This document shows positions 27,316-56,620 of a DNA stretch of 64,000 nucleotides, in pieces; position 1 is the first letter of the stretch; the number at the start of each line of letters is the position of its first letter. This stretch comes from Paramacrobiotus metropolitanus (taxonomy: Eukaryota > Tardigrada > Eutardigrada > Parachela > Macrobiotidae). The position numbers were made by a program, and so were the translations under genes. The DNA lies in NCBI RefSeq assembly GCF_019649055.1, contig NW_026570243.1, forward strand, positions 1 through 64,000, in the 5' to 3' direction. The notes beneath the pieces are model-generated. The model saw only the letters and a list, made by a program, of their open reading frames with translations. It was not told where the DNA came from and did no database searches.

Positions 27316-30300
27316 ATGACGACGGGATTGCTGGTGGGATGCGCTACGGCGCTGATTCTGGTAAGACTGATTAACAATGTTACCCAAATTAAATCTAAAA
27401 AATTCTTGATTTTAGCGAGTACATGTGTACAGGTACATTAGTACAGTATTTATTTATTTATTTTCCAGCCAAAATTATTTAAATTGTTTTGACGATGACT
27501 TTATCCAGTTCGCTCAAAAAAAGTTCGGGTGCAACTTGATAAAATAATTTATTCTTACTGCAAAATCCATCCCAGCTAATATCAGTGTACATAACGCATA
27601 GCCATAATTTACAACCATAGCGCATAACGCATAGCGCATAGCGCATTTGTTGCAGCCAAATTGAAACAATTAATTAACTTTTTAAATTAGAGCTTACAAA
27701 GTTTGTTGTATGTCCTTTCTTATGATGATGATTTGTTTTACGCCCTAAAATTATAGTTACCGATTATCAAAACTAACTGTATTAGCTGAAAGGAGCGGCC
27801 AACAGAAGTTTTGCAATGTCATTTTGTACAGATGCCGTTTTTGCTGTTGAACAGGTTTTTGCCGGCAATAACGATGCGGCCGTTATGAAAGGTAAAACAG
27901 ACAATAATTAACCGGTTACTCAATCCCTCATTCGTACATGAAAATTGCATAACATTTACATAGAGTTTAATGTTCTTAGGCACACTATCTTGGCAGATCG
28001 AAGTGACCGCCTTCTTCTCGTACAAGTCCACCGCCGACCGGGACAGTATGCTGCAGCAAATACTGGATGTGTGGAAAACAAAATTTGATGGTAATCTTCC
28101 CTATGATAACACGGCTGTGGCAATAATAATATTGATCTTCTACCGTACAACAATAAAATAGCAGTTCAATTGAAATATTATCGTGTTGTTGCAAATGGGT
28201 AATACAATTTAGCCCTGGGGCGATGCGGCAGTGTAGCCAAATGGGAAACAATACTTAATCGGCAGAGCGCAACCCGTAAACTTTCCGTGATTAATTTTAA
28301 TTACCGCGCTTAATTTGCCGGCAGATAAATACCAGCTGTACGATGAGAAGATCACGGTCGTCACCGAACTGCCGGGTCCAGAAGCCTTCGAGCAGTACAA
28401 ACAGCTGACATTCCGCATCAGCGGGAAAGGACCAACCGGCTTCAATCTCAAGCCCCTTGTCAGCAGTTTTAACACCGCTATTACGGCGGCCGCTATTCCC
28501 GGCGTGGAACTCTATCTGACCAGCGGCTCCAGCACTGACGGTACTAACGTGTTTCCTAACTAAAGAACACCGCTTCGTTTCCAAAATAAACGCTTGCGGT
28601 GTAACAGGATACATACTGTAACTGTAATTTATTTTTACATGCTGCTTATACATTTGTAATTATTAAGTATAACTTAAGTGTTGCGAAAAACTGTTCTTTG
28701 TCTCATCGATCTGAATTTACAGATTCAAAGTTTCCTTTGGTAATACATTACACGTTAATTACCTATATCGAAACGTTAAAGATCTTTTTATCAGGCAAAA
28801 AAATTATCATTTACATGTTTTTCAAGGTTTTCGAGAAATCAACATCTCAAACGTTTTGCTCTTGCTTTAATCCCGTTGAAGCAAAGACTGCTATTGGGCA
28901 AAGAAATGCGATTTGGACGTCTTTGCCATGAAATTCTTACTGGCAATCCTGAAAATCTCAATAGCGAATTCTGTACCTGTTTTCGAATTTATGGCTAAAC
29001 GTGATGTCTCTCAAGAGGTTTTAGAACATTTGTCAATAAGCGTTTTCCATTGCTCTGCATTTTTAAGTCGGCTGTGCAAAAATTTATGATACTTGTGCCC
29101 TTCAGGCTCGACAAGGTTCAATGTCGACGTCCAGGCCAACTTTGTGTACTCGTCCAGTGGAGCTCGGGATCGTCTTTTGCAGCAGATTCTGGCTCTGTTC
29201 AAGACCCAATTCGGTGCGTATTCAGTGCTTCGAAAATTATTGTCACAACAAGAAATTAATTACTTGTAAAACTGCAGCGAAATTGATTAGACTTCAGATA
29301 ATTTACTTGCAACTAGTACGCTTGTATTTGGTATGTGTCTTATTTAACGCTTGTCTTGGGAATGTGTAGCGAGTTATTCCTTCACCAACCTGAAAATCGC
29401 CGTCCAATCGGAACAACCGTCGGACGTGGAGGGAGCCAAACTGTTGACCTTCCGTATCTCTGGTCAGAGCAGCGGTGACATCGATATTAAGACGCTCAAC
29501 ACCAAATTCATGGCGGCCATCAAGACCTCCAAGATTACCGGTATCACCCTGCCTGAATCCAGCGGCGACACCGACGAAGCTACCACAGCTTCGACGGAAA
29601 CGGACGAGGGTGCCACATCCAGCAACGACACTGACGAAGGCACATCAGCCACGGGTGGCAATAAATTTACCGTCACGTTTAACGTCGTCGTCAAGTACAA
29701 CACCCAGACGGAGCTGGACGCCATCCTGCAACAAATCCTGCAGATTTTTAAACAGAAATACGGTAATACAATTGCCGTTAAGATGCCGGAGCAAGATCTA
29801 GGTTCATTCGGATTTCTGGTTTATAGGTTCCCTGTACGGCGCCACACAAATTACCATCAAAGTCACCGGGAACAAACCAAACCCGTCTGGAGGATTCTCG
29901 TTGACCATTGTGATTACCGGCTCCAGCAAGACACCGATCAACGTTACCAAAGTTACCAAGGAATTTGTTACTGTCGTTTCGTCTTCAAAGATCACGGGAG
30001 TACAGATCGTCACGGGAGGCAGCGCTACCGGCGGTGGTAGCGGCACCTCGGAAGAGGGTGGTGAGACCGAAGAAGGAACCACGCCCAAGGCTGATACTGA
30101 GGAAGGAACCACACTGTCATCTGAAACCGAAGGTGGTTCCACACCAAAATCAGAAACCGAGGAAGGTACCACGCCAGCTTCAGGAACCGAGGAAGGTACC
30201 ACGCCAGCTTCAGGAACCGAGGAAGGTACCACGCCAACGTCAGGAAGCGAGGATGGTACCACACCTAAATCTGGAACCGAAGAAGGCACTACACCAGCTT

Positions 30301-33300
30301 CCGGAACCGAGGAAGGTACTACACCAAGATCAGGTACTGAGGAAGGTACCACGTCAGCTTCAGGAACCGAGGAAGGCACCATGCCAAATTCCGGAACCGA
30401 AGACGGTACCACACCTCAGGCTGGCACGGAAGAGGGTACTACACCCAAAACCGATACAGATGAGGCGACCACACCCAAGAACGATAGCGAAGAAGGCACA
30501 ACACCGCAGTCAAAGCCTGATGATGGCACTAGCGGTAATGCTCATTGGTACTTACGTCGATTACGCATTACAACCACTCATTACAGATTCCGGCAACACG
30601 TTCACGTTGGAATACACCGTTATACTACGCTTTGTCACCCCGGTGCAGCGCGACCGTTTGCTGCAGCAGATCCTGCAATTGTGGATCAAAACTTACGGTA
30701 GCACCAACTGTCTACAGCTGAATAAGAAACGCCCATAAAACAATTGTTTTGTGACTGTAGGTGGTAAATACGGCGTGGTCAATCCACAGATCACTGCCAC
30801 TGGCTCTGCGAAACCGAGCACCAGCGTCACCGGTTCCTTCGTGGTGACTTACACCATCACCGGCACGAGTAGCACCCCGGTTCCCGACACCGTCAAAGTG
30901 GACTTTAACAAGGTTCTGAACAACGCTAAGATCAGCGGAGTGGTGGTCGACGAGGACACCACCCAGGGCGACAACAGCGTGGAAGGCAGCACGGGTGACG
31001 GATCCAGCGGGGATCAGGAGGTCACCAATACCGGTACGCACTGTGCCCACATGGTTTATTGGAGGTTCTGATGTGCATTGACGTAGGGGCGGCAGGACGC
31101 GATCTGTGCAGTACCGTCAGCGTCAACCAGATCAACGGCCGAACCATTAGTAAGTCGGCTGAAGCGGTATCTATTACCAAGAATTAAAAACCGAATTGGG
31201 ATTGAAATTTGTAATTACAGCACGTGGAACCTTCAGCACCAACTTCACGGTGTACTTAACGTACAAGACCGCATCAGTCAGGAATGACATCTTGCAGAAG
31301 CTGTTGGCTATTTGGGGCGACACCTTAGGTAAAATAAATCGCTAATAGCGCACATTAATTATTTTGTCAACAATTTATTTATTTGAGTAATAAGCTTTTT
31401 GAAATATTGCTGTTTTTGTTAAGATGAGAAAAGTTTTCCTTGAAACTAGGATTTAGTTTCATTTTTTAAATACCTAGCAGTCTTAATATGTCATTTGATA
31501 AATTTTTAAATTTGGAAACCTGTTTTTTGGAAAAATTTGTTTATGATTTTTTTTATTTGATATGAGTAAATTTTTCGTTTTTGAAAAAGAAGTCAGTTTA
31601 ACAAATTTAAATTTTTGTCTAGAAATTTGTTTTTTTATGTATTTGTATTTTTTTTAACAGATCAGGCCACCAAGCTGAAAATGTGTTTCTACACGGAGCA
31701 GCTGAGCATCGGGAAACTGGAAGGCGGACTGGTGGTCAACAAGGTCACCTACGGGATCAGCGGTATGGCCACGGTGAATTTCAATACCGCGGCGGTGGCC
31801 AAAGTCTTCGAGCAAGCTGTTGCTGACTCCAGCCTGCAGAATGTCTTCTTTACCACCGATTTCGGAGACTGCAGCACCAAAGCCGGTAACACAGTATTTA
31901 GACAGAGAAGTCTGACGGCTGAGTAACGTTGCTTTTCGTCTGTGTTTCAAGTTCCTGACACCAATCAGTTCACGATTACCGTCAGCGTGATCATTAAGTA
32001 CAAGTCACAAACGGAGCTGGACACCATTTTACAGCAGATCCTCAGGCTTTGGATCCAGAAATACGGTAATGTTTCCGTTGTTTTAGAAAGAATTATTTAC
32101 AAAATTGTAACAGGTGGTCATTTGTGTCATCAGGTTCGATTTACGGCGCTACCCGTGTCACGATTAAAGTAACCGGAAAGAAACCCAATCCCAGCGGAGG
32201 CTTCTCGTTGACAATCGTCATTTCCGGATCCAGCAGAACCGTGATCGATGTCACTAAAGTTACCAAGGAGTTCATCACCGTCATTTCTAAATCCAAGATC
32301 ACCGGAGTGACAATTACCACTGGCGGTAGCGTTACCGGTGGTGGCAGTGCCACATCGGAGGAAGGTGGTGAAACCGAAGAAGGAACCACACCAAAATCTC
32401 AAGCCGAGGAAGGTACCACACCGAAATCGGAAACCGAAGAGGGAACCACACCCAAATCCGAAACCGAAGAGGGAACCACACCCAAGTCGGAAACCAACGA
32501 AGGCACAACCCCGTCTGGAAACACCGACGAAGGTACCACCCCGAAATCGCACACCGGTTCCACACCTCAGCCTGATGTTGACCTGGACACCACACCTAAA
32601 TCCGGAACGGAGGAAGGTACCACGCCGAACTCAGGAACCGAAGAAGGAACCACACCCAAAGCCGATACCGAAGAACGTACCACCCCGCAGTCGAAAACCG
32701 AAGAGGGCACCACGCCCAGCGGCGAGACCGAAGAAGGTACTCCGTCCACGGGCGGCAACAAGTTCACCGTGACTGTCAACGTCATCGTTAAGTATAGTAC
32801 GCAAACGGAATTGGACGCTATTCTGCAACAACTCTTGAAGATCTGGATCCAGAAATACGGTAACGTTTGCGTTATTTATATGCTAATACGGTGGAGAGTT
32901 CAGTGCATTCTGGCCATTTCTGGGCTTTTTTATAATTAGGTTCGCTGTACGGTGCGACACACGTTACCATTAAGGTCACTGGAAAGAAACCAAACCCAAG
33001 CGGAGGATTCTCCTTGACCATTATCATTACCGGCTCCAGCAAGACCGTGATCAACGTCACCAAAGTCACCAAGGGAATTCGTTACGGTTATTTCCTCTTC
33101 CAAAATTACCGGAGTGCAGATCATCACAGGAGGTAGCGTGACCGGTGGTGGCAGCGGTACATCGGAGGAAGGCGGAGAGACCGAAGAAGGAACTACCCCC
33201 AAAAGTGAAACCGAGGAGGGCACCACACCAAAGTCCGAGGCGGAAGAAGGTACTACACCCAGATCAGGAACCGAAGAAGGAACATCGCCCAAGACCGACT

Positions 33301-36300
33301 CTGAGGAAGGAACCACACCCAACTCAGGAACTCAGGAAGGAACTACGCCCAAGAGTGAAACCGAGGAGGGTACCACAGCAAAAACCGATACAGAAGAAGG
33401 TACCACGCCGAAATCAGGAACGGAAAAAGGCACCACTCACCAAGCCGGAATTGAGGAAGGCACAACCCCACAGTCAAAGACCGAAGATGGTACCACACCC
33501 AGCGGAGAGACGGAAGAAGGCACTCCCTCATCCGGTGGCAACAAGTTCACCGTGACCGTCAACGTCGTCATCAAATATACCACCCAAACAGAACTGGATT
33601 CCATTCTGCAGCAAATTCTGAAGCTTTGGATCAAGAAATACGGTAATAGTTATGGTATTATTGAGAGAGAAAATTTCGGTTAACTGAGTTTTGATGATTA
33701 GGTTCCATGTACGGCGCCACCAAGGTTACCATCAAAGTTACCGGAAAGAAACCAAACCCAGCTGGAGGATTCTCGTTGACCATTGTGATTACCGGCTCCA
33801 GCAAAACCGTGATTGATGTCACCAAAGTCACCAAAGAGTTTATTACGGTCATTTCAACGTCCAAGATTACAGGAGTGACAATCTCCACTGGCGGCAGCGG
33901 TACATCGGAGGATGGTGGTGAGACAGAAGAAGGAACCACACCCAAATCCGACGCCGGGGAAGTCACCACACCAAAAACCGAAACGGAAGATGGCACTACA
34001 CCAAAATCGGATACTGAAGAAGGCACTACACCCAAGAGCGAAGGAGGAGAGGGCACCACACCTAAAGGGGATGCCGAAGAAGGAACAACTCCGCAGTCGA
34101 AGTCGGAAGAAGGTACCACACCGGGCTCGGATTCTGGTGAAGAAACCACGCCTGCGTCAACCGAAACCACAGGAGGTTCGATCGCTCATAAACATTGACG
34201 ATGTATACGCAAACACACATTGGTACTTATGGGTTGTAATTTGCTTTGCTTTGACATAGGCAATTCCTTCAAAGTCACCGTCACCATTGTCGTTACTTAC
34301 AAAACTCAGACGGAACTCGACAGCATCCTGCAACAAATTCTGAAGTTGTGGATCCAGAAATATGGTAACGATACCAATGCAAATCCATTTACCTGATTAA
34401 AAACCAGCGCTTTCTGATTAGGTACTAAATACGGCGCGACCGGTGTGACCATCAAGGTCGGCGTTAAGAAACCAAATCCGAGCGGTGGCTATATAATCAG
34501 CATCATCATTTCCGGATCGAGCAAGACCGTGGTGGATGTGCAGACCGTCAGCAAGCAGTTCATCACCGTTATCAGCACGGCCAAGATCACCGGCGTGCAG
34601 GTTCCCGATAATGAAACTTCCGGTGACGACAACGAAGTGACCACCGCTGCCACCGAAGGCGACGATACCAAAGGATCTGGTAACCCAGAAGCACAAAACA
34701 CCTGGGAAAAATTCTGCAGCAATGTTTTTACGCATTTTAGGAAAGAAGTTCACCTTCGATTACACCGTGACCATTACCTACAAAACCGAGACCGAGTACA
34801 ACAATCTTCTCCAGAAAATCCTCACCATCTGGATCAAACATTTCGGTGCAACGCAAGGTGTCACACATTTTCAGAAATTGAATTGAATAGTTATGTTCTG
34901 CAGGTACCAAATACGGTATCTCCGGCGGCAAGACCGTTATAACTGGCACACCCACGCCCACCTCTACCAAGGGCAAGTACACACTGCACATGACCATCAC
35001 CGGCACGTACACTACCGGTACCTTCGATGTGGACACGGTGACCAGCGAATTCAAGGTGGCCATCACCAGAACGAGATCCCCGGCGTCACCGTGTCGGAGG
35101 AGAAAGAGGACGGTGCGGCGACCGAAGCACCGGAAGAGGGAGCGACACCTAAAGCCGACGAAGAGGGCGCCACGACCGCTCCCAGCAAGGAGACATCGGA
35201 GGGCAGCGAAGAAGCCGTCACACCAACTGGTAAATAAACAGTAGTTTTTGGAAATATTTCAAGGGCTCGTGAAAGAAGACCCGGTAACCTTTTCGAAAGG
35301 TTTAAAATTAATTAGCCTCCAAGTGTTAACGGTTTATTTTTAATCGCGCATGGTTATGATGTAGCTGCTCCGGGAATCGACAAATCTGGAACGGACCACG
35401 ATATGGAAGACGTTTTCGGTACAATCAGACATCACATTGGGGCCGTCTAGCGTTACTTTAGATACCTGGTTTTCTAACAGGTCATAGTATTACCCTGCAT
35501 TTCACGCGGTACATCACGTACACCACGGAGGCGCAACTCAAGGACATCCTCAACCAAGTGTACTTTGTATTCATGAATAGCTTCGGTACGTCATGACAAA
35601 TTTTCTAACCCGTTACCAAAAGCGTAATAAGCTAACTGGTGCACAGGGCCGACGATCCAACTGACCCGAGACCAGCATTCGGAAATCCACGTGTATGGCA
35701 CGCCCAAACCCACCAGCGTCAAGACAACATTCCAGGTGGAATTCGTCATTACCTTCTGGGCCAAAACGACACTGTCCACGACGGAACTGGAAACCCGCTT
35801 CGATGGAATGCTGAAGGAAAGCCATGTCAAAGGCATCTCCACTGATCTGCCCAGTGAATCTACTGACGACAGCTCCAGCGATGATGACGGCGGTAAGAAA
35901 CCGTCTTTCGTGCAGCTGCAGTCTTACTGCGGACACATGTACTTATTTGTTACAGCTCATGATTTCGAACTGGACCTGACGCTCTTCATCAAATACAAAA
36001 CCGATGCCGAGCTGCAGAAGAAGCTCGATGAGATCCTGAAAGTATGGATCGCAAAGTTCGGTGAGGGCCCATCAAAATTTGCAGAAAATGGCCGCGTTAA
36101 TAATGACTATAGTTACGAAGGGGTCCATGATTACAGGCACAGAATACCAAGTGACCGAGCAGAAGATCCAACTGGTCGGTAAACCATCGTCCACGAGCGT
36201 TAAAGGCATCTTCCAGGTGCACTTCACCATCGACGGTACCACGACCATGTTCGCCAAGATGACCGATAAGGTCGTGGGCAAATCCAAGACACCCCGTTTC

Positions 36301-36940
36301 TCGGAGATGCTGAAGAGCCACCCGATTGCCGGTGTGTATCTGGAACTGCCCAGCAGTGCATCCGATGACAGTGGAAACGAGTCGGATGACGGCGAAGACA
36401 CCGAAGACAACGACGCCAATAAAGTCACCGAAAACGACAACGGTAAGCGGGACTATTAACCGGTTCACGACATCAAGGTGACCATGAAGGATTGTACAGG
36501 TGGCAAATTCGGTGTCAGCGAAAACCAGAAAAACGGCAAAACTGTCGGTACGTGAAGACAAACGCTTGTACAAATATTTGCTCTCACTGGCAACTGTTTC
36601 TGCTACAAAGGACCTGGAAATTTTGATGTGACATTGACCGTATATCTTGCCTACGACACCACCGGTATTCGGGATAACTTCTTGCAGCGTTTGTTGGTTA
36701 TCTGGAGGAATAGCCTGAGTAAGAACGCTTTTAGAACGATTTATGTGTTTATAAAATACCGGCTCCTTTCTGACTGGTTTGCGTTGTACAGATGACTACC
36801 AAGTGACCAACCTGAAGATCGAATTCGAAAAGGACGCCATGAGCGTGGGCAAACTCCCGAAAGACCAGGGCGGCGCCAAGGTAACGCAGGAAAATATGGT
36901 TCAAAGTTACGTACAGTACATGAATGATTACTGCGGTTAA
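27316..36940 (+). CDS. gene A: large secreted mucin-like protein with 13 two-exon SEA-like modules
   Basis: About 2,110 codons in 28 exons: 27316-27360, 27855-27891, 27980-28090, 28325-28540, 29106-29213, 29370-29762, 29827-30534, 30587-30697, 30761-31033, 31087-31149, 31221-31328, 31661-31885, 31952-32065, 32134-32859, 32940-33642, 33702-34175, 34260-34364, 34422-34679, 34741-34845, 34904-35229, 35365-35418, 35481-35585, 35647-35892, 35956-36060, 36137-36442, 36500-36547, 36611-36718, 36792-36940. After exon 1, every splice is phase 1. Exons 1-2 give a signal peptide (MTTGLLVGCATALILVFAG). Each module is a strand-helix half (KYxTQTELDxILQQILKLW) plus a strand-strand-helix-strand half (GGFSLTIVISGSS...FITVISxSKITGV). 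Acidic Thr/Ser linkers follow several modules. Exons 15 and 20 each carry a 1-nt frameshift. The protein is probably extracellular and glycosylated. An alternative is two genes split at a TAA at 31924-31926. Confidence 0.75.
29565..29655 (+). repeat. short Thr/Asp/Glu linker in gene A exon 6
   Basis: Encodes a spacer with repeated TDEATT/TDEGTS words between the second and third modules. Exon 6 is unusual because linker and next half-module are fused in one exon without an intervening intron. Confidence 0.7.
30050..30534 (+). repeat. acidic EEGTTP(K/A)S tandem linker, gene A exon 7
   Basis: About 17 copies of a nine-residue word, S/G-TEEGTTPxS (27-bp DNA units such as GGAACCGAGGAAGGTACCACG). 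Every unit has Glu residues beside a TTP triplet, the kind of Thr-Pro context that is often O-glycosylated. Unit identity is highest in the middle, suggesting recent unequal exchange. Confidence 0.9.
32365..32755 (+). repeat. acidic EEGTTPKSE tandem linker, gene A exon 14
   Basis: About 14 nine-residue EEGTTPKSE-like units, slightly disturbed in the centre by a GSTPQPDVDLDTTP variant. They lie between a second half-module and the next first half-module inside a single 726-nt exon. Confidence 0.9.
33165..33535 (+). repeat. acidic EEGTTPKSE tandem linker, gene A exon 15
   Basis: About 13 units of the same nine-residue word. It follows the frameshift at 33073-33075 and is open only in the +1 frame relative to the exon start. 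Confidence 0.88.
33910..34170 (+). repeat. acidic EEGTTPKS tandem linker, gene A exon 16
   Basis: About nine units, more diverged (EGGEGTTPKGDAEEGTTP). It ends at a GTTCGA donor that is weaker than the others in this gene. If that site is not used, the frame runs to TGA at 34196-34198. Confidence 0.85.
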
Positions 36941-37810: not shown

Positions 37811-40800
37811 ATGATGCTAGCTGGAGTTGTACTACTTATTGCGCAGGTAATGAGTTCTTGCATTAAATTTTTAAAGTACTTTTCTATGTTATTTACCGAT
37901 CAAAAATCATAAAACCTGCCTAACTGTTTTAGTAGTGCAAGTAGCGCCTATTAATCTATCGCTGACGCTTGAATAATTGTTAGTTAATTAAAACATGTTA
38001 TCAGTCTTATGTTCTTGCAGTTTTTGGCGGGAGGCAGCGATGCGGCCGTTTTCAACAGGGTGGTCACAGGTACACACAGGAAAATCTTCCCTCGGAACAT
38101 CGAGGATTCAAAGATTATTTGTTGTTCTGTTTTACTCAGGAACGATTTCCTGGCAAATCGACGTGACAACTTATTTCTCATATAAATCCACGGCCGAACG
38201 CGACAGCTTATTGCAGCAGATACTGGATTTATGGAAATCATCCTTTAATGGTAATTACAGTCATTAGCGATTATCAAAGAAGCCGGTATGGCCAATTAAC
38301 ACATAATTACGACGATTTATGCAACGTGCCGTTATCGTGCCAAAGCCGCTTGTTTGCCGACGTTTTGCTTATGGGGATTATAAATAATTACGGAACGAAG
38401 AAGCCGGCCGCTAAATCTCATAACAATCTGACACATTGCAGCCAAGTTCAGTCTGACCGACGAGCAGATCAAGGTCGTCAGCGAAAAACCGGCGCCGGCG
38501 GGCTTCGATGAATTTAAACAGATCACCTTCAAGATCAGCGGCAAAGGCCCCACCGGCACCAACCTCCAGTCCATCGTGGCCAGCTTCCAGACGATCCTCA
38601 CGCAGGCCAACATTCCCGGTGTCCAGATGACACTGTCCCGAAAAACATCCCAAAGTAAGAAGACTATTGCGAATCCTATTTTTTAACCTAGTGACAATGA
38701 TATACAACGGCACCGAATTGCTTCACCGGAAAGTGTTTTTCGAAATCAACATTAGCCACCGGATTATTTAAGCACTGACACTATTGATAAATTTACTAGC
38801 CGCCATGGGCTTACATATACTTCAAGCAGTGCATGTCTTAGCCTAACAGTATGCCATGAAAATGTACGAACATGGTGACACCCATAATAATAATTATTAT
38901 TATTATACAGTATACACTTGTACATACGTACGTAGTACGTATGTACATGCGATACGTATAGACACAGTGTTACTTTTTATATATTTGTTTGGCGAATAAT
39001 TGTTACAGCTGATCCATCGATTTTTACTCTGTACAGCTTCCACATTGTCCGATTAAATCATGATGCAATGTTCTATATTTCAGCGGTCTACACTATCAAT
39101 ATTGATGTGGAAGCCAATTTCCGGTACACCACACTAACCGAGCGTGATCGCATGTTGCAGCAGATCCTTAACCTGTTCCGGACGAAATTCGGTAAAGACT
39201 TAACTGATAATAATTTCTACATCTTATACTGGCTTTAACTACATCCACAAGCGAAGTTACCTTTGTAATCCTACGTTAATATTACAGCTAAATACTCTTT
39301 CACCAACCTGAAAATCGAAGTGATCTCCGAACGGCCTTCCGTCGTACCCGGCATGAAACTGCTCAAATTCCGTATCAGTGGACAAACCACCATCCGCATC
39401 GACGTCAACGATCTCAGCCAGCAACTGCAGCAGCAGATCCGTATTTCGCACATTATCGGCGTTGAGCTGCCGTCCGAAACCATACGTACGAAAAATTTTA
39501 ATTTATTTGTTTTTCATTTCATAAATTTGGAACCAGTTATTGGAAATGTTACAGATACGTTCACGTTGGAAAGCACGGTAACGCTGAAATACACCACGAC
39601 GATCGAGCGCGATCGTCTGCTGCAGCAAATCCTGAAATTATGGATCCAAACTTACGGTGACTCGCTTCAGTATATTTTATTGGCGATCATTCGGTATATT
39701 TCACAATTTCATTTAGGTATCAGATATGGAATTCAAAACCCGCAAATCACCGTCGTCACCACGACGCGGTTATCCAACGGTTTATTCCTGATCAAGTTCC
39801 GTATCACCGGTACCAGCACCGTTACCATTAACATCCCCGACCTGATCATCAGTTTCCGCAAGATCCTGTTCAGCGCCCACATTACCGGCATCATTATAAC
39901 CGTGGATGAAGGCGACGAGACCACACCTGGCAGCAGCAGTAGTGAGAGCACCGAATCCAGCGACGCCACAATTCCACCCACCGATGCCCCGCCGACACCG
40001 GAGCCGGAAACGCCGGCCCCTGAAACTCCGGCTCCACCGACACCCGAACCGGAAACTCCAGCTCCTGAAACTCCAGCTCCGCCCACGCCGGAGCCCGACA
40101 CCCCGGCTCCTGAAACCCCAGCTCCTGAGACACCAGCACCGCCAACACCGGAACCCGAAACTCCGGCTCCAGAAACCCCAGCGCCGCCGACACCGGAGCC
40201 AGAAACACCGGCCCCCGAAACTCCAGCTCCACCCACTCCCGAACCAGAAACACCGGCACCGGCGACCCCGGAATCCCGGACGCCGGAACCGGATGTTACA
40301 ACGCCCGACACTTCAGTCACCGAAACACCGGGTAACGGTATCCAATCACACGTCCCCACTGCCAATATGAACTAAACGTGTCATGTTCTTTATAGAAAAG
40401 AAAGTGTGCGGAAAAATTAGCATCAACCAGATCAACGGAAAAGTTGTCTGTACGTCCAAAAATAAATATACGCATTGTGACGTAATCCTACATTTTAGCG
40501 GTGGTTTTTCAGATCGTGGATCCTTCACCGCCTCGTTCACCGTGTACTTAACGTACAAAACAACAACCATCCGCAACGATTTGCTGCAGCTGCTGTTGGC
40601 CGTCTGGGGTGATATTTTGGGTAAGAGAAAGTGTGACCTTTACAAGAACCCTATCAAATGGCAAAGGATATGTTTATTGCAGACAACCAAGCCACCAACT
40701 TAAAGATGTGCTACGTTAGCGAAGAAATCAACGTGGGCAAAACGCTGACAGGAATTATTATGAATAAGGTCACCTATAATATCAGCGGTGTGGCCACGAC

Positions 40801-40909
40801 CACGTTCAACACAGCAGCCGTGGCCAAGCTCTTTGAAGCCGCTGTAGCCGCAGGGACCATGACGAATGTCTTCTTCACTGCGGATTTCGGGCAGTGCGCA
40901 GCCCAATAA
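37811..40909 (+). CDS. gene B: secreted protein with four SEA-like modules and a Pro/Glu/Thr linker
   Basis: Eleven exons: 37811-37846, 38021-38069, 38140-38250, 38442-38654, 39084-39191, 39288-39485, 39555-39656, 39717-40331, 40396-40449, 40513-40620, 40683-40909. They sum to 1,821 nt and give an intact 606-residue frame; every junction after the first is phase 1. The signal peptide MMLAGVVLLIAQFLAGG spans exons 1-2. Modules 1-3 follow, each as a helix half (AERDSLLQQILDLW in module 1) and a strand/helix/strand half (IPGV). A rod of PEPETPAP repeats follows module 3. The C-terminal block has a small CGKISINQINGK exon and a fourth module with two pairs of cysteines, ending DFGQCAAQ. Exon lengths and order match the first part of gene A, so it looks like the ancestral, minimal form. 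The function is unknown, probably extracellular matrix. Confidence 0.85.
38886..38945. repeat. AT-rich and TACGTA palindromes in a gene B intron
   Basis: A short AATAATAATTATTATTATTAT palindrome is followed by TACATACGTAC/GTA/GTACGTATGTA with perfect 11-bp arms (38921-38931 and 38935-38945), in the 429-bp intron between exons 4 and 5 of gene B. Confidence 0.85.
39980..40275 (+). repeat. PEPETPAPETPAPPT tandem linker in gene B
   Basis: A run of about 100 residues made of PEPETPAP and ETPAPPT words (DNA units of 24-45 bp). It is proline-rich and acidic with regularly spaced Thr-Pro, which predicts an extended, possibly O-glycosylated rod. It occupies the position of the EEGTTP linkers in gene A but has no sequence similarity to them. 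Confidence 0.92.
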
Positions 40910-45300: not shown

Positions 45301-48300
45301 GGCAGTGTCCAGCATAATTGGTACGTCGGCGTAGTCGGTTTCACGGTCGCCTTGGTGGTCACCTGGTTCGCCGGGGTGGTAACGGGGATCGGTCTCTTGG
45401 TGGTCTTTCCTGCGGTCGTCGTGGTAGTTCTCGCTGGTGTTGTGACTACTTTTGGTGGTAGCGTCCATCTGAAGGTAGGCAAAGTCTTTCTCGTAGTTGC
45501 CACCGCTGGTCGGGTGGTCGTAACGCTTGGCGCCTCGGTGGTGGAGGTTTCTGGCGTCTCGGGTGTGGTCGTTTCCACCAAATCTCGAGACGGTACCGTT
45601 GTTCTCTCGGTCTGAACGAATTCCGTGGTATCGACGGCCGGAGTTGTTGTGGTTGCCTCGGCGGTTACGGTGACCTTTGGTGGTACTGTCCAGCAGATGA
45701 CCGGGGTGGTCGACTCTTCGTAAGATTGGGGAGTCGTTGTGATGAAAAATTTCGGGGTTGTGGCGACCGGTCGCGGAGTGGTTCCTGATACCGAGGTTGT
45801 CTTGGGAGTTAACGTCCAGCAAATCTTAACCGGCGGGGTTGTTGTGGCAATCGGTATTTTACTGGTTGTGCTTGGGATTATCGCTTCCGTGGTGGTGCCC
45901 TCTGGTTTCTCCGTGGTAACGATTTCCGCTTGAGTGGTGGTAACGACTCGTGGCGGCAAAGTCCATGATTTAGTGGTTACTACTTGTTTCGGTGTGGTAG
46001 TGAGAAGTGGCTTCCTGGTGGTTATTTCGGTCGCCTCGGTGGTAGTTGTTTCCGGAACTTCGGTAGTGACGATTACCGCTTGAGTGGTGGTAATGACTCG
46101 CGGCGGCGGAGTCCATGATTTCGTGGTTACTATCTGTTTCAATGTGGTAGTGACAGGTAACTTACTGGTGGTCGGTTCAGTCGCCTCGGTGGTAGTTGTT
46201 TCCGGGACTTCAGTGGTAGCGATTTCCGGCGGCGCGGTCGTCCGAACCTTCGGCAGCGTCCAGCGTGCTGTTGTCGAAACTGGTGGCGGGGTTGCGGTTT
46301 TCGGTGGGACTGTCCAACAGATTACCGGGGTGGTTGATTCGGGAACCGGTGACTCGGTTGTCGTAATGAAGAACTTGGGTGTCGTTGCCACAGGCGGAAC
46401 CCGAGTGGACGGTTTCGGTGTCAATGTCCAGCAGATTTTGGTCGCAGGCGTTACCGTTCTAGACGACTGAGTCGTTGTTGCGGGTGACAATTCGGTGGTT
46501 GTGGTTTCTGCTACCACCGGTGTAGTAACTTCCGTTACCGTCGGCGCAGTGGTTACAGATCGAATTGGAGTTACCGTATTCGTCGCTTCAGGAGTGGTCG
46601 TTTCAGGGATCTCGGTGGTCACTGCCTCCGTCACCGTGACCTTTGGTGGAGCGGTCGTGAACAATGGTTTAGCTGTTGCTGGTTTTGTAACTGGAGGTAA
46701 CGTCACCGATGGTTTGGTTGTTGCTCGCGGTGGCAGTGTCCAACACATCACAGGCGGCACGGTGGCAGGTGTGGGTGGCTGCTCCGTTGTGGTTCGAATG
46801 AACACCTTGGGAGTTGTTGTTCGTGGCTGTACCGTTGCCTTGAATTGCGTAGTTTTGGTTGCTGGGGGTGGTGGTACTTCCGTCGTAGTCACTACCTCAG
46901 CCTCGGTCGTTGTTGCCACTTGCTGTGTGGTGGTGCGAGGTGGTAATGTCCAGCATAACTGGTACGTTGTAGTGCCGATCCGTGCAGCCGTTGTGGTGAC
47001 TTCGGGTTTCTTGGTGGTAACCAGCGGTTTCACCGTGGCACGCGTCGTTGCGACTGGAGCCACTGTAGTTGAAGGTATTTCCTCGGTGGTCGTGGTAACT
47101 TCTTCGGCTTCCGTTGTGGTAGTCCTGGCTGCAGTGGCGGTTGTTACGACTTTCGGTGGCAGCGTCCATTTAGTGGTCACCACTGGGCGGTTCGTCGCGA
47201 CCGTGGATTTTACGGTCGGGATAGATGGCGCCTCCGTCGTGGTGGTTTCCGCAAGTTCCGGTGTTGTTGTTTCTACGAGTTCCCGCGACGGCACGGTGGT
47301 AACAACTGGAGGGGCGGTCGTCACCTTTGGCGGAACTGTCCAGCAAATCACGGGCGTGGTGGTCTCTTCAAGAGGAGTTTCCGGTGTCGTGGTTTCCGTT
47401 TCCGACACCGTGGTGACGAAAAACTTGGGGGTAGTTGTAGCAGGCCTGGCTGTTGTGGTTTTTGGTGTGAGCGTCCAGCATATCTTTATTGGCGCCGTGG
47501 TTGACAGAACTTTAGGAGCTGTAGTTACAACTGCAACTTCGGTTGTGGTTGTTTCTGGTGCCTCGGTTGTCGTGGTGATCCGTGGTGGTAATGTCGATGG
47601 TTTGGACGCTGTTTGCTTCTGTGTCGGTGTAACCGGTGGGATTCTCACTGTGGTGCTTTCTGTTACCTCCGGGGTTGTGGTCTCCGTTACCTCGGTGGTG
47701 ACCACTTCCGGCGGTCTCGTCGTACGCATTCTTGGTAACGTCCACGGTGGTACCGTTGAGCGAGGAACGGCGGGTGTCGTAGTTACCAACAAGGGTGCTG
47801 TTGTCTTTGCGAGTTTCGGAGTGGTGGTGGTAGTTTTAGCCGGAAGCGTCCAGCAAATCATCGGCGTGGTGGTTTCTTCCGATGGTGATTCTGGCGTGGT
47901 CGTCTCCGTTTCCGCCACCGTCGTAACGAAAAATTTCGAGGTGGTAGTCGCCGGTTTTGGTGTCGAAGTTTTGGGCGGTAATGTCCAACACATTTTGATC
48001 GGTGGTGTTGCCGTGGTCCCTTTGCCTGGTTGCGTGGGCCTTGTCGTAGCTGCTGATGGTATTTCCGTGGCAGTTACCTCCGGAATTTCCGTCGTCGTTG
48101 CTTCCTTTAGAGTTGTGGTTGGTAACCGTTGGGGGACCGTCCATCTTACCGTTGTCGCACGTTTAGTTGTCGTGGTAGTTATTTCGGGTTTTTCCGGGGT
48201 GGTATTTGTTAGAGTGGTGGTCACCAGTCGCGCCTCGGTGGTCAACACTTCCGCTGGTGTAGTTACGACTGGTGCTTCTGTGGTTACCACTTCTGGCGGT

Positions 48301-51300
48301 GCAGTCGTGACTTCCGGAACTTCGGTGGTCACGACGCTTGGCAACGTGGTAGTTTCTTCCGGTACTTCCGTAGTTACTATTTCCGTGGGCGTGGTCGTTC
48401 GAATCCTGGGCACAGTCGGTGGCAGTGTAACCGACTTCGTTGTACCGATTGGTTTTGCGGTGGTAGCTTTCGGCGGAACGGTCCAGCACATAACCGGAGT
48501 GGTGGTACCCTCTTCCACCGGAGTTTCAGGGGTGGTAGTTTCGGATTCGGCGACGGTGGTAACAAAGAACTTCGGTGTGGTAACCGCCGCCGACGGCGTA
48601 GTTGTATCCAACGACGGTTTCGGTGTAAGGGTCCAGCAAATCTTAATCGGTGGTTTTGCTGTGGTTACCAGTGGCTGGACGCGTTTGGTGGTGCTGACGG
48701 CCGGTACTTCGGTAGTAGTAATTTCTGGTGCCTCGGTGGTCGTAATCTGCTGGGTGGTAGTGATAACGCGGGGCGGAAGTGTCCAGCGTTTGGTGGTCAC
48801 TACTGGTCTCCCATTGGTTGTGGTAATGGACGGTACGGTGACTTCGGTGGTCACCACTTCCGGTACGGTAGTAGTTACCACCGGAGCTTCTGTGGTTACC
48901 ACTTCTGAAGGTGTGGTAGTTACTTCTGGTGCCTCGGTTGTCACAACATTGGCTGGCGTGGTCGTTTCTTCAGACACTTCCGTAGTTGTAACCTGCGCGG
49001 GCTTGGTAGAGCGAATTCTGGGAACTGTTGATGGCAGTGTAACTGGTGTCGTTGTACCAATCGGTTGCGCGGTGGTGGCTTTCGGAGGAACGGTCCAGCA
49101 CATAACAGGTGTGGTGGTACCCTCTTCCACCGGGGTTTCGGTAGTCGTGGTCTCGCTTTCGGCTACGGTGGTAATGAAGAACTTAGGTGTGGTAACGGCA
49201 GCCGACGGCGTAGTTGTATCCGATGACGGTTTCGGCGTTAGAGTCCAGCAGATCTTAATCGGTGGTGTTGCAGTGCTTACTGGTGGCTGGACGCGCTTGG
49301 TGGTGCTGAATGCCGGTGCTTCGGTGGTAGTAATTTCTGGTGACTCCGTGGTCGTAGTTTCTTTTAAGGATGTGGTTACACGGGGTGGAAGTGTCCAGCG
49401 TTTGGTGGTCACTACTGGTTTCACCGCCGGTGTAGTGGTAGTGGGCGTTACGGTAACCTCCGGTGTGGTCACTTCCGGGAGCTCCGTGGTTGGCTTCTCC
49501 GTAACTGCGGTTGTCCTTCTAACAGTTGACGTTTTAGTGCGGGGTGGCAAAGTCCAACATAAAACCGGTGGCGCTGTTGCCGGTGTGGGTGGTTGCTCGG
49601 TCGTCGTGCGGATGAAGATCTTCGCCGCCGTTCCAGCTGGTACCGTTGGTTTTATCGTCGTTTTAGGCGCTAAGGTAGATTTCGCGGTCGTGGTAACCGG
49701 CGCTGCAACGGTTGTCGGCGCTTCGGTAGTTGTCTCGGCTTCGGTGGTAGTGCTTTCCGTAGCAGTAACAGTTTCTGCTGGCTGTGTTGCGCGAGTGGTA
49801 GTGCGTGGTGGCAGTGTCCAACACAGCTGAAACGTCGGTGTCGTCGTCGGTTGTGGTCGCACCGTTGTTCCCTGCGTTCGTTCGGTTGTCACGACTTCTT
49901 CTGTAGTGGTAGTTGGTTTCAGCGGCGGAAGAGTTACGGGTTTCACAGTGGTTACAGATTTTGGTGTCCATCGCGTTGTGGCCGGTGTGGGTCGCGTTGT
50001 TACCGCTTTGGCAACCGTGGAAATAACCGGTTTTTCGGTGGTACTGATTTCCGGGATTTCGGTTGTTGTCGTTTCTACTTGCTCACGCGATGGAATTGTG
50101 GTGGTTACGGAGGGAACCACCTCAGTGGTTTCAGTTGGTAACGTAGTTGTTTCCACTGCAGGTGTAGCAGTGACCTTTGGTGGGACGGTCCAGCAGATTA
50201 TCGGGGTGGTGCTTTCTTCTTCAACCGGATTTTCGGTTGTGGTAACGAAAAATTTCGGTGTGGTGGCAACAGGTCCCGGTGTGCTAGCTCCAGCCGTTGG
50301 TTTCGGTTTCAAGGTCCAGCAAATCTTGATGGGCGGTGTAGTGGTAACAGGTTGAATTAGTTTGGTGGTACTTTCCACAGGAATTTCCGGTGTGGTAACC
50401 TCTGGCTTTTCTGTAGTATAGACTTCTGGTTTCGCTGTCGTAACGATTGACAGGGCCGTAGTAGGGCTTTCTGTCACCTCGGGCGTTGTGGCTTCAGTAA
50501 CCTCTGGGGTTATCACTTCTGCAGGGGTCGTAGTGCGAATCCGCGGTAATGTCCACGGTACAGCTGTGGTAATGCGGTTCGGTGTAGCTGTTAACATGGT
50601 TTTAGTTGTTGTTTCAGCTAGTTTTCTGGTAGTTGTCGTCTTGCCCGGCACCGGTGTCACTGTCTGTTTCGCTTCCGTGGTCGTCGTTTCCGGTGCCTCT
50701 GTAGTAACCGCTTCAGTCGGCGAGGTGGTACCATCACGTATTGGTACCGTTTGCTGTCTTGTCGTTACCGCTGGTTTTGTCGTTGTGCTTTCTGTCACTT
50801 CTGGCGTTGTCGTTTCCGCAACTTCCGTGGTGACCACTTCCCGGGTTGTGGTGGTACGGATTCTGCGAATGGTAACCGGTAACGTGGCCGTTACACGCTT
50901 CGCAGTAGTAGATTTAACTGCGCCTGGTGTGGTCAAATGTTCGATTTTTGGCGTCGTCGTGGTAGTTTTCACCGGTAGCGTCCAGCAAATCATCGGTGTA
51001 GTGGTTTCCTCCACCGGAGTTTTAGGTGTTGTAGTTTCTGCTTCGGCCACCGTGGTAACGAAAAACTTCGGCGTTGTCGTAGCTGGTTTCTTCGTTGTGG
51101 TCTTTGGTGGCAGCGTCCAGCACATCTTTATCGGCGCTGTTGTGCTTTTTATCGGTGACGGTGGTGTGGTGGTAATTTGTGGGACGACTTCGGTGGTAGT
51201 CGTTTCTGGTATCTCTGTGGTTACGATTTCGTTTGCGGTGGTTGTCTGCACTTTTGGTGGCAGTGTCGGTTGAGTTACCGCTTTGCCTGGCGTAGTCGTT

Positions 51301-54300
51301 GCTTCTGGTGTTTCCGTTGTAACCACCTCATTGCTTGTTGTTGTCTGGATTTTCGGAGGCGGTGTCGGTCGAGTGGCCACTTCGCCTGGAGTAGTCGTTA
51401 CTTCCGGCACCTCCGTTGTAACGACCTCATTACTTGTTGTTGTCTGAATTCTGGGTGGAAGTGTTGGCTGAGTTACCACTTTGCCCGGCGTAGTCGTTAC
51501 TTCTGACGCCTCCGTTGTAACCACTTCAGGTTGTGTCGTGGTACGGATGCGTGGCGGTAACGTCCACCGTCCTGTTGTGGTAACTGCACCTAACGGCGTG
51601 GTTGTCTCTTCAGCCGATGGGGTGGTCGTTTCGTGTTCCGGTGTGGTCGAAGCTACTGGCGGAGCAGTGCTCCCCTCGCCTTCCGGTGTTGTCGTGCTGG
51701 ATCGAGGCGGAATAGTCCAGCAAATAACAGGAGCGGTGGTTTCCTCCACCGGCGTTTCCGGCGTCGTGGTCTCGGCCTCGCTGACCGTGGTTACAAAGAA
51801 TTTGGGAGTGGTAACGGCTGGCTTGGCTGTCGAGGATTTCGGAGACAGTGTCCAGCACATCTTCAGCGGCGGCGTAGTCGTCAACGCCTCGCGCGACGTC
51901 GTTACCGCTGGGGCGGTTGTCGCTTCCGATACCTCCGTCGTAGTTGTCACTTCCGGTACCTCCGTCGTTACCAGTTCTCCGGTCGGCGTTGTCGTGGTAC
52001 CCACCAATGGAACCGTTGTCCTTTGCCGAGGAGCGGTTGTTGTCTTGACCTTTTTGGGCGGTAAGGTCCAGCACAAGGGCGTGTGCCACCCTTCGGTGGT
52101 AGTGGTGACGGCCGGAGGTTTGTGGGTAATCGTTACTTCAGTGGTTACCACCGGCGATTCCGTGGTCGTCGTTGTATCTGCAAAAACCAACATTGAAAAT
52201 CTGCCAGTCAGTTGAGGGTGCTTTTATGGTACCTTCGTATTGGTTAATGGTGATAATTCCCGGAACGTATTTTTGTTTCAGTGTCTTCTCGAACTCGTAC
52301 CACACTTGAGCGATATCGATGGTGCCGCCTTTATAGGTGATTTTGTACGTGAGAATCTTCCCCGGTAACGGTTTCTCGCTGATGACCGTGATTTCCGGGT
52401 TAACGTAGCCGAATCTTCCTGCAGAACGTCATATTGGTTAAAATGCGCTACATCATGTCGGCTGCCTCATCTGCGTACCAAGAATCACTTTCCAAATGGA
52501 GAAGATCTGTTGCAGTTTGGCATTACGTTCGTCCTCCGTCGTGTAGCTAACACCGATGGAATCAATGAGACTCTGCACGGAACCTATCCACAAACTCTTC
52601 CTTAAAACGACGTAGAGTGATAGAGAGCAATCATAATAAGCGTACCGGCCATCGTGTCGGTCATAGGAATGAGCGTCACGCCCAGAATCGGTTTCACCTG
52701 GAACGCCGTCTGGAAACTGATGAGGAGATCGTTGACGCTGATGGTCAACTTGGGCCCGGTGAAGATGATGTGATAGGTCACGGTGATCTTGGTTTGACCC
52801 GGCGCCGGGAGTTTGGCGTGAACGAACTCGATGCGGACATCCGTGATATGGAAGCGTTCTGTAATGATTCCAGTACTCAGAGTGGATCTTAACCAAGGAG
52901 AGTTCACTGGGCAGCGAAAAACGTTCTTGAAAGCATCAGACAGCCACATGCTAACGTACAGCTGATAGCTTCTTATAAAACGTCAAAAGCTGGTTGTGGA
53001 TGTTTTACGGATTGGAATGGGATAGTCTCTTAACGCCGCATTTAGAAGCTACAATCTCAGGATGACCGGTTGCAGAAACAAAGAAAACTACCTAGTTTTA
53101 TATGGCTAATAGCTTTTAATAAAAGGTCACCACTGCTAAGTGTTCGGATAAGAATTTACCGAGAACGGATTTCCAGATGATGAGGATAGCCTCCAGCAGT
53201 CGATCGCGCTCGGTCTCCGTCGTATAGCTTAGGACGATGTTGTCGGTAATGGTCTGCGTCGCCATGGTTGTTTTAACAATGGTGTTGCCTAAAGAAACCC
53301 GCTGTTTATTATAGCATACAGCTTTGCAGGATGCGCGAATAGAAGACGAGTAACTGACTGCTGAATGCTCCACCGGGAATCAGGGCCACATCGGCGATGG
53401 GCGTCTCCTGCATTTTAGCCAGGAACTGTCCGGCCACATCGTTCAGGTTGATCTGGGTGCTCAAACCCGAGAAGATGACATTGTACACCACGATGGACAT
53501 TGACGGTCGCTCCCGGTTTATCCGAGTCGAGCTCGATGCGGACGTTGACCGCATCTTTGGCCGCTGTTCAGTGCGAAACACCGGTTAATTTGCAAGGCTC
53601 CAGAAAACTGATGAGATGGCAAATACATTACTTAATATAGGCTGCCAAACAGCCAGAATTCGTTGCAGTAACGCCGCTCGCTGCCAGTCCGCGGTGTACG
53701 TAAGGCTGATGGTGTGGGAGATGGTCTGGACGGCTGTCGATGAGTCGGTAACAGTGTCTTTAACCAGCACCGTCGTGGACGTCGTCGTACTGTCCACATT
53801 ATCGGTAACTGTGCCAAAATTTGAAAAAAACAACATTCTATCCCGTTTTTCGTAAAAGTGAATTCTTTTTGCCAACCATATTAGTTTTACTTTGGGAATT
53901 TCGCAAACTGTTTTTATGAGAAACGTGAGTATGTATCCTGAATTTTGCAGCTCTTGATACGACAGTTTCGTATTAGAGCAAAAAATGTACTGTATGCTAC
54001 GAATGTTTACGTATATCAAATTGGCCAGCGTCTGGCTAGTTCAGTACTTTATGTTTGTCGAACATTGTCAGTATAATGTACCTGATGTATCACTTGCGTC
54101 AATAGACTTGTCGGTCTCTGTAAATAAACAAACTGCGTTAAATGCGAGTATTAAATGCGACAAGCTCGAACAACGATATACAGTATCTATGACAATTTAA
54201 TTATCACTGCACATGCTTAAATACTAACTAATGCAATTACTGTGCCGGTAATGGTGTTGATTACTGTAATGCTGTTTAGCGCTAATTATTGTAGTCTGTT

Positions 54301-56620
54301 TCATTATTATTGTACGAGTATCCGTAATAGTTTTATTGCCACATTGATACCATGTTCAATAATATTTTACGACTGAAACAATTTTCCGTACTTGTACTGT
54401 AATCTATTCACTGCGAATTACGTACGCGGTTGACAAGGATTTCCATCGTCATCCACCCATTTCACTGTGCACTTGCTGTTATCGCCCAATGCGCCTAAAA
54501 TACACAAGCTAAGTACAATGCAGTTTTGGTTAATTGGAGTCAGATTTTATTAATCGGTCAAGAACACTGCAATTAATTTTCCGAATTCACTAAATTTGTA
54601 CCCGCGACAAACTTCGTTACATAGACATCATAATCATTGAGTTGTTATTGCTTGCCGGATTAATTGTAATTAGGTGCAATTATTAATCAACGGACATTGT
54701 ATGTCGCTCAGTTCGGCGAGAACAAGAATGTAACGCCCGTTCGCTTTCACTCTCGCCGAGTGCCGGGTAAACGAACTCCACAGAACACAACGAAGGCCGT
54801 TACATTGATACATTATTTCTTTTTGCACGGCACGCCCAGACTACGTGTCTTCGGTTTTTATGCATAACAAGGGTAGATTTAATATAATTTATGCTGATTA
54901 ACATAATTTACGGAAACACCAATATGCGGTGACCAAAGCCCTAACCGCTTTATTATCGATACATTAACAAAGTTCCATGCCAAACGGACACAGTTTACTA
55001 TTCGTCCAGTCTCGTGATTGTTCAAATAAAATAAAGGGTGAGACTATAGGCACCCCTTTCACCCCCGTTTGCTATAGGCACCCCCTTTTGCACCCTGTTT
55101 TACTATAGGCACCCCTTTTCCATTAGATAATTCTCGCACCCCGTTTTTTTCCGCGGACTATAGGCACCCATTTTTAAACTTTTTTCCCAGAAGACTGCCA
55201 CAATGTTTTGACAGTTGTTTTGTTTCACAAAATATTTTGACGATCTGACATTCTGACATAATTAGGTCACGCATTCAAAAAAGAAAGGTATGTTAGGCAC
55301 TCCATCCGACAATTGGCCGGTTTGGCTGATCGGCCAGCATAGATCGATGCGCATGGCATCTTCCACGCGCACGACAATATCGCCCTTTTGGATGGGTTGC
55401 TCGTTCGCTGGTTTCCGTCCGACGCGTTTTGGGCATCTTAGCAGGATTTCAGTTTCTATAACCTCTGCTAGCCATGCACGGTGGGTGGCAGCTTTTGTGA
55501 AAACTGCGTTCTCTGGCCTGTGCCCTTGCACAATTTCACACTGCCAAGCGCAGACCAGTGGCCCGCATTGATTCGTGCCAGGCAACTGGCGCTGCACAAC
55601 CGGAAGCCTAATGTTCACATCACGCGTTTCGCGTCCATAGAGCATGGATAACTGAAGGAAGATATGCTCCGGAAGCGCGGGGTCCAGGCTGTTGTATACG
55701 GTGACGAACGGGTCACCTTGTCGCTTATGTGACAAAACAAAATGATGTGCGCCATACAACACCTGCACGCATCCCATTCCGGCGTCAACTTCGTCCTGAA
55801 TTCGGGTGTGTGCGACAAAACAAAATTCGACCTTAAAACATAGCAACGGACAATAGGGGGTGCCTATAGCTTTCGCACACGACGGGGTGCAGAGATTAAT
55901 TAATCGAAAAGGGGGTGCCTATAGTCTAAGTGGGTGCGAAAGGGGGTGCCTATAGATAACGGGGGTGAAAGGGGTGCCTATAGCCATTTCCTAAAATAAA
56001 TTAGGTTTCAGTCGTTACTATCGTCCGTACTGTCTGTGTTTGTCATGACTAAAATTATTCGGATAACAATGTTACAATGGACATAGTGCAAACTTGCATT
56101 TAATCCCCGCAAATGCCAGGGTGGTTTCAGAAATTTATCAACACAACTTAACCCGTTTATTCATTTGAAAACTGATTACTGTCAATTAATACTGAAATGC
56201 TTACTAAAAAAACTTGCAAATTCAAAAAAGCCAGCTTCGAAATTCAGAATAAATGAATTCATTAGAAAATCTCAGTAATATGAATTCTGTTAAAATGAAC
56301 TTTGCAGAGGACAATTGTAATATGTATTAAAATTTACCCTAAATTACGTAGTCGCGGTAAAATAAAATTTATCTAAAAATTCGTAGTCAAACAACCTGCT
56401 ACGTCCCTGAATAATGCCTACATTCAATGGATACAATGAAATTCAAATAAATGCAAGGGTAATTAGTCAAATCAGTTTGATAATAAGCAGCGCTTACCGC
56501 ATTCAGACGAATCGAAACTTTCACTTTCGCTGATATCGCTGCTTGAGTTCACACCTTTCACTGATGATCCGCCGGATACACTCGCTGAGCCGCCGGCAAA
56601 AGCGCCTGACTTCGAAGAAG
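42317..56620 (-). CDS. gene C: giant Thr-rich mucin-like protein with three SEA-like modules and ~33 CWT motifs (5' end missing)
   Basis: Recognised exons, 5' to 3': 56620-56498 (Ser/Gly/acidic), 54494-54426 (small, two Cys), 53808-53632, 53563-53358 (or -53373), 53288-53160, 52858-52646, 52583-52479, 52418-52233, 52177-44979 (7.2 kb), 44464-43111, 43047-42765, 42685-42317. They total about 10.4 kb, or 3,470 codons. Three copies of the A/B module (ERDRLLEAILIIW, DERNAKLQQIFSIW and so on) precede a rod of about 2,800 residues of TTT, TEVPE and KFFVTT words. CWT(L/V)PPK recurs about 33 times, usually with single cysteines 25-90 residues apart. Upstream junctions are phase 1; the three 3' junctions are phases 0, 2 and 0. 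Single-base frameshifts occur near 43,771 and 53,485-53,505. I found no signal-peptide exon. Probable role: secreted, glycosylated, cysteine-crosslinked structural mucin. Confidence 0.7.
44979..52177 (-). repeat. 7.2-kb Thr-rich repeat exon of gene C
   Basis: One uninterrupted exon of about 2,400 codons. It contains 25 CWT motifs in recurring pairs: KICWTLTPKP, then about 25 residues later KFFVTTVAES, then ETTTPETPVEE and VICWTVPPKA. Larger blocks repeat. For example, the segments around 47.1-48.7 kb and 48.7-49.3 kb share whole 100-residue stretches. The exon begins in phase 1 with DTTTTTESPV and ends at a GTAAGC donor in phase 0. Confidence 0.9.
55036..55991 (-). mobile_element. ~956-bp inverted-repeat DNA element carrying a Ulp1-like frame, in an intron of gene C
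   Basis: Both ends hold three copies of the word CTATAGGCACCCCCTTT in inverted orientation (55049-55170 and about 55,855-55,985), separated by variable CACCC tracts. Outside them is a 9-bp direct repeat TAAAATAAA at 55027-55035 and 55992-56000. That word is AT-rich, so chance cannot be excluded. The element lies in the 2-kb intron between the first two recognised exons of gene C. A 9-bp duplication with a Ulp1-type protease frame recalls Mutator-like elements that carry such frames, but no transposase is present. Confidence 0.65.
55262..55846 (-). CDS. Ulp1/C48-like cysteine protease fragment inside the element
   Basis: 194 codons with no ATG at the open start, so partial. GAHHFVLSH (His34/35) and VYNSLDP (Asn52) are followed by QRQLPGTNQCGPLVCAW with Cys94. 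This is the order and spacing of His, Asn/Asp, Gln and Cys in SUMO-protease-like domains, which are common cargo of animal and plant transposons. After Cys94 the EIVQG...HRAWL segment resembles the domain's helical end. A short basic and then acidic tail follows to the stop at 55262. It is the same strand as gene C but is not joined to its exons. Activity cannot be judged. Confidence 0.5.
   Translation of the reverse strand: MLCFKVEFCFVAHTRIQDEVDAGMGCVQVLYGAHHFVLSHKRQGDPFVTVYNSLDPALPEHIFLQLSMLYGRETRDVNIRLPVVQRQLPGTNQCGPLVCAWQCEIVQGHRPENAVFTKAATHRAWLAEVIETEILLRCPKRVGRKPANEQPIQKGDIVVRVEDAMRIDLCWPISQTGQLSDGVPNIPFFFECVT

Follow-up and report, generated by a model that had tools for sequence, protein, structure and literature searches.

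A repeated two-exon module with a predicted SEA-like fold in putative mucin-like genes of the tardigrade Paramacrobiotus metropolitanus

What is encoded by a locus whose three neighbouring genes repeat one protein unit that could not be assigned to a named family? The question is raised by a 64,000-nucleotide stretch of Paramacrobiotus metropolitanus DNA (contig NW_026570243.1, positions 1 to 64,000; hereafter the window), in which genes A and B on the + strand and gene C on the - strand had been proposed, from the letters alone, to be built from a module encoded by two exons. At the level of genomic sequence, the repeated two-exon protein module is confirmed as real. The locus probably encodes secreted mucin-like proteins, in which arrays of modules with a SEA-like fold are combined with Thr/Pro/Ser/Glu-rich stretches, with a role in a coat.

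Two profile hidden Markov models (HMMs), one per module half, were seeded with copies hand-picked within the window (9 first-half and 6 second-half copies, which match their own models by construction) and scanned against all six frames of the window. Twenty first-half copies are detected, 17 on the + strand and 3 on the - strand, with E-values from 4.4e-20 to 5.5e-5 over positions 27,988-53,725, while the best first-half match outside this span has E 0.37. Second halves reach E 4.8e-4 or better in 17 of 20 cases, compared with E 0.13 for the best match outside the span; the weak ones (modules being named by gene and order) belong to A5 (E 0.0034), A13 (E 6.1, cut short by a stop) and C1 (E 1.3, frameshifted). 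The scan reproduces the unit counts of the original prediction, 13 in A, 4 in B and 3 in C. The first half consists of a strand followed by a helix with LLQQILxLW, and the second of a strand, a further strand ending in I-T/S-G, a helix and a last strand (IxGV). Columns at least 82% conserved among 40 modules are L22, I25, L26, W29, G71, I81, G83, F105 and G116 (alignment numbering).

The two halves are separated by an intron at a fixed place. A phase-1 GT..AG intron between helix 1 and strand 2 is possible in 17 of 17 + strand modules, the acceptor of A5 having been placed by eye at 31,661 and the same site later chosen by a script. Across four loci, 44 of 50 first-half copies can be joined to a second half through such an intron, the unjoined ones comprising three without a partner in range and three without a usable site pair. 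Phase 1 was imposed by the intron scans and the joining script, and the position of GT around the first-half end therefore serves as the independent test: GT is found in 22 of the 50 copies at offset +1 and in 20 at offset +4, the two being phase-1 offsets, against 0-7 copies at each remaining offset between -15 and +15. Among 40 modules, the distances given by the first halves correlate with those given by the second halves (Mantel r 0.675, with 0 of 2000 permutations as high), and the nearest neighbour is identical by either half in 24 modules and different in 16. Exchange of half-module exons between modules is unsupported, given that the halves largely agree. One divergent copy (C67:507,982-508,284) holds both halves in a single uninterrupted frame, without the internal intron of the other joined copies. 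The ratio of nonsynonymous to synonymous divergence (dN/dS) lies between 0.06 and 0.35 in eight chosen module pairs, which points to purifying selection on the modules, though high synonymous divergence (dS 0.86-3.17) makes the values rough.

As far as genomic DNA can show, the half-exons are joined into one module, and the proposed two-exon unit is borne out by the HMM copies against the window background together with the intron pattern. That the exons are chance open reading frames, or unrelated genes that merely look alike, is rejected as wholly improbable in view of the E-values relative to that background, the conserved intron site, the co-variation of the halves, the intronless copy and selection.

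The features of gene A, all on the + strand, are as follows, with the supporting evidence in brackets.

27316..27360, +, first coding exon of gene A with a signal-peptide-like start, MTTGLLVGCATALIL (hydrophobic start judged by eye)
27855..27891, +, second exon of gene A, ending ...NNDAAVMK-G (compare ...TADAAVMKG in a paralog on contig C67)
27988..28512, +, module A1, first-module type (HMM, splice model, tree)
29114..29551, +, module A2, second-module type (HMM, splice model, tree)
29663..30008, +, module A3, middle type (HMM, splice model, tree)
30009..30534, +, linker rich in Thr/Ser/Glu/Gly, with EEGTTPxSGT repeats
30598..30948, +, module A4, with TGSFVVTY at the beta2-beta3 hairpin (HMM)
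31229..31885, +, module A5, terminal type (HMM, tree)
31966..32315, +, module A6, middle type (HMM, splice model)
32760..33122, +, module A7, one-base frameshift in the second exon near 33066 (HMM)
33543..33883, +, module A8, middle type (HMM, splice model)
34265..34603, +, module A9, middle type, second AlphaFold2 model (HMM, splice model)
34746..35079, +, module A10, one-base frameshift in the second exon near 35050 (HMM)
35486..35843, +, module A11, divergent (HMM, splice model)
35961..36342, +, module A12, divergent (HMM, splice model)
36619..36938, +, module A13, first exon terminal-type by similarity, second exon cut by a stop (HMM)

Module A5 is of terminal type amid gene A, falling with B4 into one terminal clade in the tree of 40 modules (support 100/100), and gene A may therefore be a five-module B-like gene plus a second gene, or a fusion. 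A5 would either end a five-module gene at the frame stop at 31,924 or continue through a candidate phase-1 donor after 31,885. The second exons of A7, A10 and C1 each carry a one-base frameshift, with long frames nearby clean, and these may be assembly errors or decay. Decay of part of the locus into pseudogenes (gene A past A5, and the broken first module of gene C) is rather unlikely. The three frameshifts and the truncated A13 speak for it, set beside the clean 7.3-kb frame of gene C and the clean gene B, while dN/dS is only 0.06-0.17 in five tested pairs among A3, A6, A8 and A9, the frameshifts could be errors of assembly, and symmetric exons could be skipped.

Gene B can be assembled from ten exons into 588 amino acids with four modules, no internal stop and a hydrophobic, signal-peptide-like N-terminus. 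Its internal exons are divisible by three in 7 of 8 cases, the exception being the 49-base second exon.

37811..37846, +, first coding exon of gene B, MMLAGVVLLIAQ
38021..38069, +, second exon, completing the signal-peptide-like sequence
38140..38654, +, module B1, exons 38140-38250 and 38442-38654 (HMM, gene assembly)
39084..39485, +, module B2, exons 39084-39191 and 39288-39485 (HMM, gene assembly)
39555..39898, +, module B3, in-frame intron 39657-39716, first AlphaFold2 model (HMM, gene assembly)
39899..40331, +, linker rich in Pro/Thr/Glu, 35% Pro and 22% Thr (composition count)
40513..40909, +, module B4, terminal type, containing the gene B stop (HMM, gene assembly, tree)

Hydrophobic N-termini were recognised by eye in genes A and B and in a gene on contig C67, and none was identified for gene C. 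Genes A and B have DAAV in common after the hydrophobic stretch, and TADAAVMKG closes an open signal-like exon of the C67 gene.

Gene C provides the direct link between modules and mucin-type sequence. Its last module, C3, is joined in frame to the Thr/Pro-rich frame by a 55-base phase-1 GT..AG intron, which, with the linkers of genes A and B, upholds the proposed association of the module with mucin-type stretches.

56502..56657, -, candidate 5' exon of gene C, Ser/Gly-rich, uncertain
54426..54494, -, 5' exon of gene C, GALGDNSKCTVKWVDDDGNPCQP, similar to an exon in the contig C1 paralog
53381..53725, -, module C1, one-base frameshift in the second exon near 53500 (HMM)
52671..53259, -, module C2 (HMM)
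52233..52581, -, module C3 including exon end, intron 52178-52232 leading to the mucin-like exon (HMM, splice model)
44937..52177, -, mucin-like part of gene C, inside a 2,428-amino-acid open frame (44937-52223)
42370..44461, -, more Thr/Pro-rich frames keeping a CWT(L/V/I)PP motif and ending ...RPRRRSLFDRR, exon borders approximate

The mucin-like part, counted over 2,411 amino acids, is 32% Thr, 14% Pro and 4% Ser, and thus has the long Pro/Thr/Ser-rich domain expected of a mucin-like protein. All 25 of its cysteines sit in CW motifs, mostly (I/L/M)CWT(L/V/I)xP(K/R), spaced by 38-50 residues in 9 of 24 intervals; these cysteines are possible cross-link points of a mucin-like polymer. The Thr/Pro-rich part reaches about 42,370, differing in this from the original prediction. 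On contig C1, a paralogous gene combines a KW-D--GNPC exon like that of gene C with three first and four second module halves (E<0.05). It also has a tail rich in Thr/Pro and a basic C-terminus, RRRTVFDRK, that recalls RRRSLFDRR of gene C. Between the candidate 5' exons of gene C lies an element of about 940 bp (55044-55985) whose terminal inverted repeats measure about 126 bp and which holds a 218-amino-acid frame. A genome search listed 135 matches to this element, many incomplete or confined to its ends; its frame gave zero Pfam matches at E<=0.01.

The fold of the module was addressed through AlphaFold2 models of B3 and A9. Both are predicted as a ferredoxin-like alpha/beta sandwich with the order beta-alpha-beta-beta-alpha-beta, the last strand being two residues long, and so agree with the order deduced earlier. 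The accompanying idea of a SEA/ferredoxin-like domain is supported at the level of predicted fold rather than by sequence-level SEA homology. The Pfam SEA profile (PF01390) is listed for 0 of 38 modules at E<=10 (HMMER filters dropping most matches above about 0.1), for 0 of 16 modules in another set and for 0 of 5 more divergent modules at E<=1, though the same profile finds two SEA domains above its cut-off elsewhere in the genome. In hhalign comparison with eight SEA sequences, fragments among them, the 38 modules reach a score of 13.3, which is within the shuffled range (reversed profile 13.55; 7 of 150 column-shuffled versions above 13.3). Against five SEA sequences the score is 12.5, and against three a profile comparison gives probability 1.4 and P 0.036, whereas SEA against SEA, the positive control, gives probability 89. 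The GSVVV-type self-cleavage motif at the strand 2-strand 3 hairpin, also not seen in the original prediction, occurs in exact form in 0 of 40 modules, with a loose GS-x-x-V-like pattern in two (A4 and one C67 copy). The G-S-V-V-V type motif is absent from some accepted SEA domains.

Overall, predicted fold and setting make the module SEA-like, its membership of the SEA family being putative. It shares with SEA domains such as those of MUC16 and Gpr126 the predicted fold, a similar size and a place beside Thr/Pro-rich stretches in probably extracellular proteins. It differs from them in its missing sequence-level match, in the 38 of 40 modules without the hairpin pattern, in its helix-1 signature and in the fixed intron. 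SEA mucins such as MUC16 carry tandem SEA modules beside long Thr/Pro-rich stretches, an arrangement repeated here, although the present modules have no detectable sequence kinship and the end of gene B, judged by eye, has no hydrophobic anchor. The C-terminal domain of phenylalanyl-tRNA synthetase (PheRS), which we take to be FDX-ACB, gives structural Z scores of 7.6 and 8.2, comparable to or better than SEA; it belongs to an intracellular enzyme, however, and the likeness is that of a shared common fold only.

Two origins compete for this domain. Descent as a true but highly divergent SEA domain has about an even chance; the SEA domain of Gpr126 is likewise recognised only from structure, and on the other side stand the failure of a Pfam profile that works elsewhere in the genome, the profile-profile score set against its positive control, and the preference of the A9 model for PheRS. 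Gpr126 is missing from the 50 structure matches listed for that model, which carries no weight either way. An independent, lineage-born extracellular domain of ferredoxin-like fold, without SEA ancestry, is a less probable alternative, since SEA is the only animal extracellular superfamily recognised among the structure matches listed and missing sequence similarity is weak evidence at such divergence, the fold itself being common.

No convincing match to the module was found in Pfam or NCBIfam, in keeping with the earlier inability to name the family. The weak Pfam matches, among them FecR_C (E 0.0046) and ParB_C (6 of 38 modules, best 1.5e-4), were treated as chance, the two shown in full scoring below cut-off. 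NCBIfam gave one weak match each to three families, PDB sequence profiles had best E-values of 0.47 and 0.1, and a viral structure library gave zero matches at E<=0.001. Judged by titles and abstract openings among the literature matches listed, such a module family is nowhere described.

In the secreted mucin-like proteins favoured here, the folded part would consist of tandem, mostly cysteine-free modules of about 95 residues with the predicted SEA-like, ferredoxin-like fold, each from two exons with the phase-1 intron between them. Most module exons appear symmetric (1-1), which would allow modules to be duplicated or skipped in frame. The modules would alternate with, or precede, Thr/Pro/Ser/Glu-rich stretches bearing O-glycans. 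We infer an extracellular matrix role, in which the secreted, glycosylated proteins would form a hydrated surface or matrix coat (of cuticle, gut or egg). Within it the modules would serve as rigid spacers or as glycan-binding or assembly units. A comparable case, as far as the published description goes, is the SEA-like family of Schistosoma japonicum, an expanded family of surface proteins in which only structure modelling revealed the SEA-like domain and whose recombinant proteins bound glycosaminoglycans and heme (PMC3886910). By analogy, glycan binding is plausible for the present modules.

The family extends beyond the window. A genome search with gene B, C-type modules and divergent modules as queries found further loci on contigs C67 (about 475,900-512,000), C57, C85, C1 and C29, the window locus being C23. 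On the rescanned stretches, first halves at E<0.05 number 20 on C23, 28 on C67, 1 on C57, 1 on C85, 3 on C1 and 2 on C29 (at least 55 in total), and second halves likewise at least 55. These counts are lower bounds, as the search scores best candidates only and weaker module-like exons go on in C29 and C67. Runs of still more divergent module-like exons at C29:803000-812999 and C67:504000-513999 suggest that the family probably exceeds the counted copies. Outside this genome, one collection of prokaryote contigs was searched with gene B, and 0 of its 36 pattern matches were confirmed; on this coverage the clade specificity suggested in the original prediction is a possibility.

In the tree of 40 modules, one cluster holds the first modules of different genes and two additional C67 modules (97/94), another, less firmly supported, the second modules (81/81), and a third the terminal modules of several loci (100/100). 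The middle modules form local groups where support is best (four modules from C23, 100/98; four from C67, 100/99). On a simple reading, duplication of an ancestral gene that contained all four types (first, second, middle and terminal) would have been followed by local multiplication of middle modules. That these copies, at least 55 by first halves at six loci, form a new animal extracellular superfamily without SEA descent, the scaffold of a lineage-specific mucin-like coat, is a bolder and doubtful extension.

Other features of the window surround the module locus. Two similar neighbouring genes, 10200-11265 (-) and 24762-25822 (-), encode a small secreted-looking protein; the former, joined by eye, matches the chitin-binding CBM_14 (E 2e-9), which fits a surface setting and proves nothing. 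An 897-amino-acid open frame at 21635-24328 (+) contains a reverse transcriptase domain (RVT_1, E 2e-17). Frames resembling rhodopsin-type G protein-coupled receptors lie at 6100-7137 (+), 8095-9249 (-) and 62801-63547 (+), the first two an inverted duplicate pair by eye; the tested part of the second is below the Pfam cut-off. A lipocalin search aimed at tardigrade SAHS proteins yielded one ordinary-looking FABP and two short stretches.

An abundant, probably extracellular module invisible to family libraries would leave part of the surface or matrix proteins of this animal without annotation. With the 38-module alignment and the map of paralogs, the module can be looked for directly in other genomes, and the predicted fold suggests a testable connection of SEA mucins with the matrix proteins of invertebrates.
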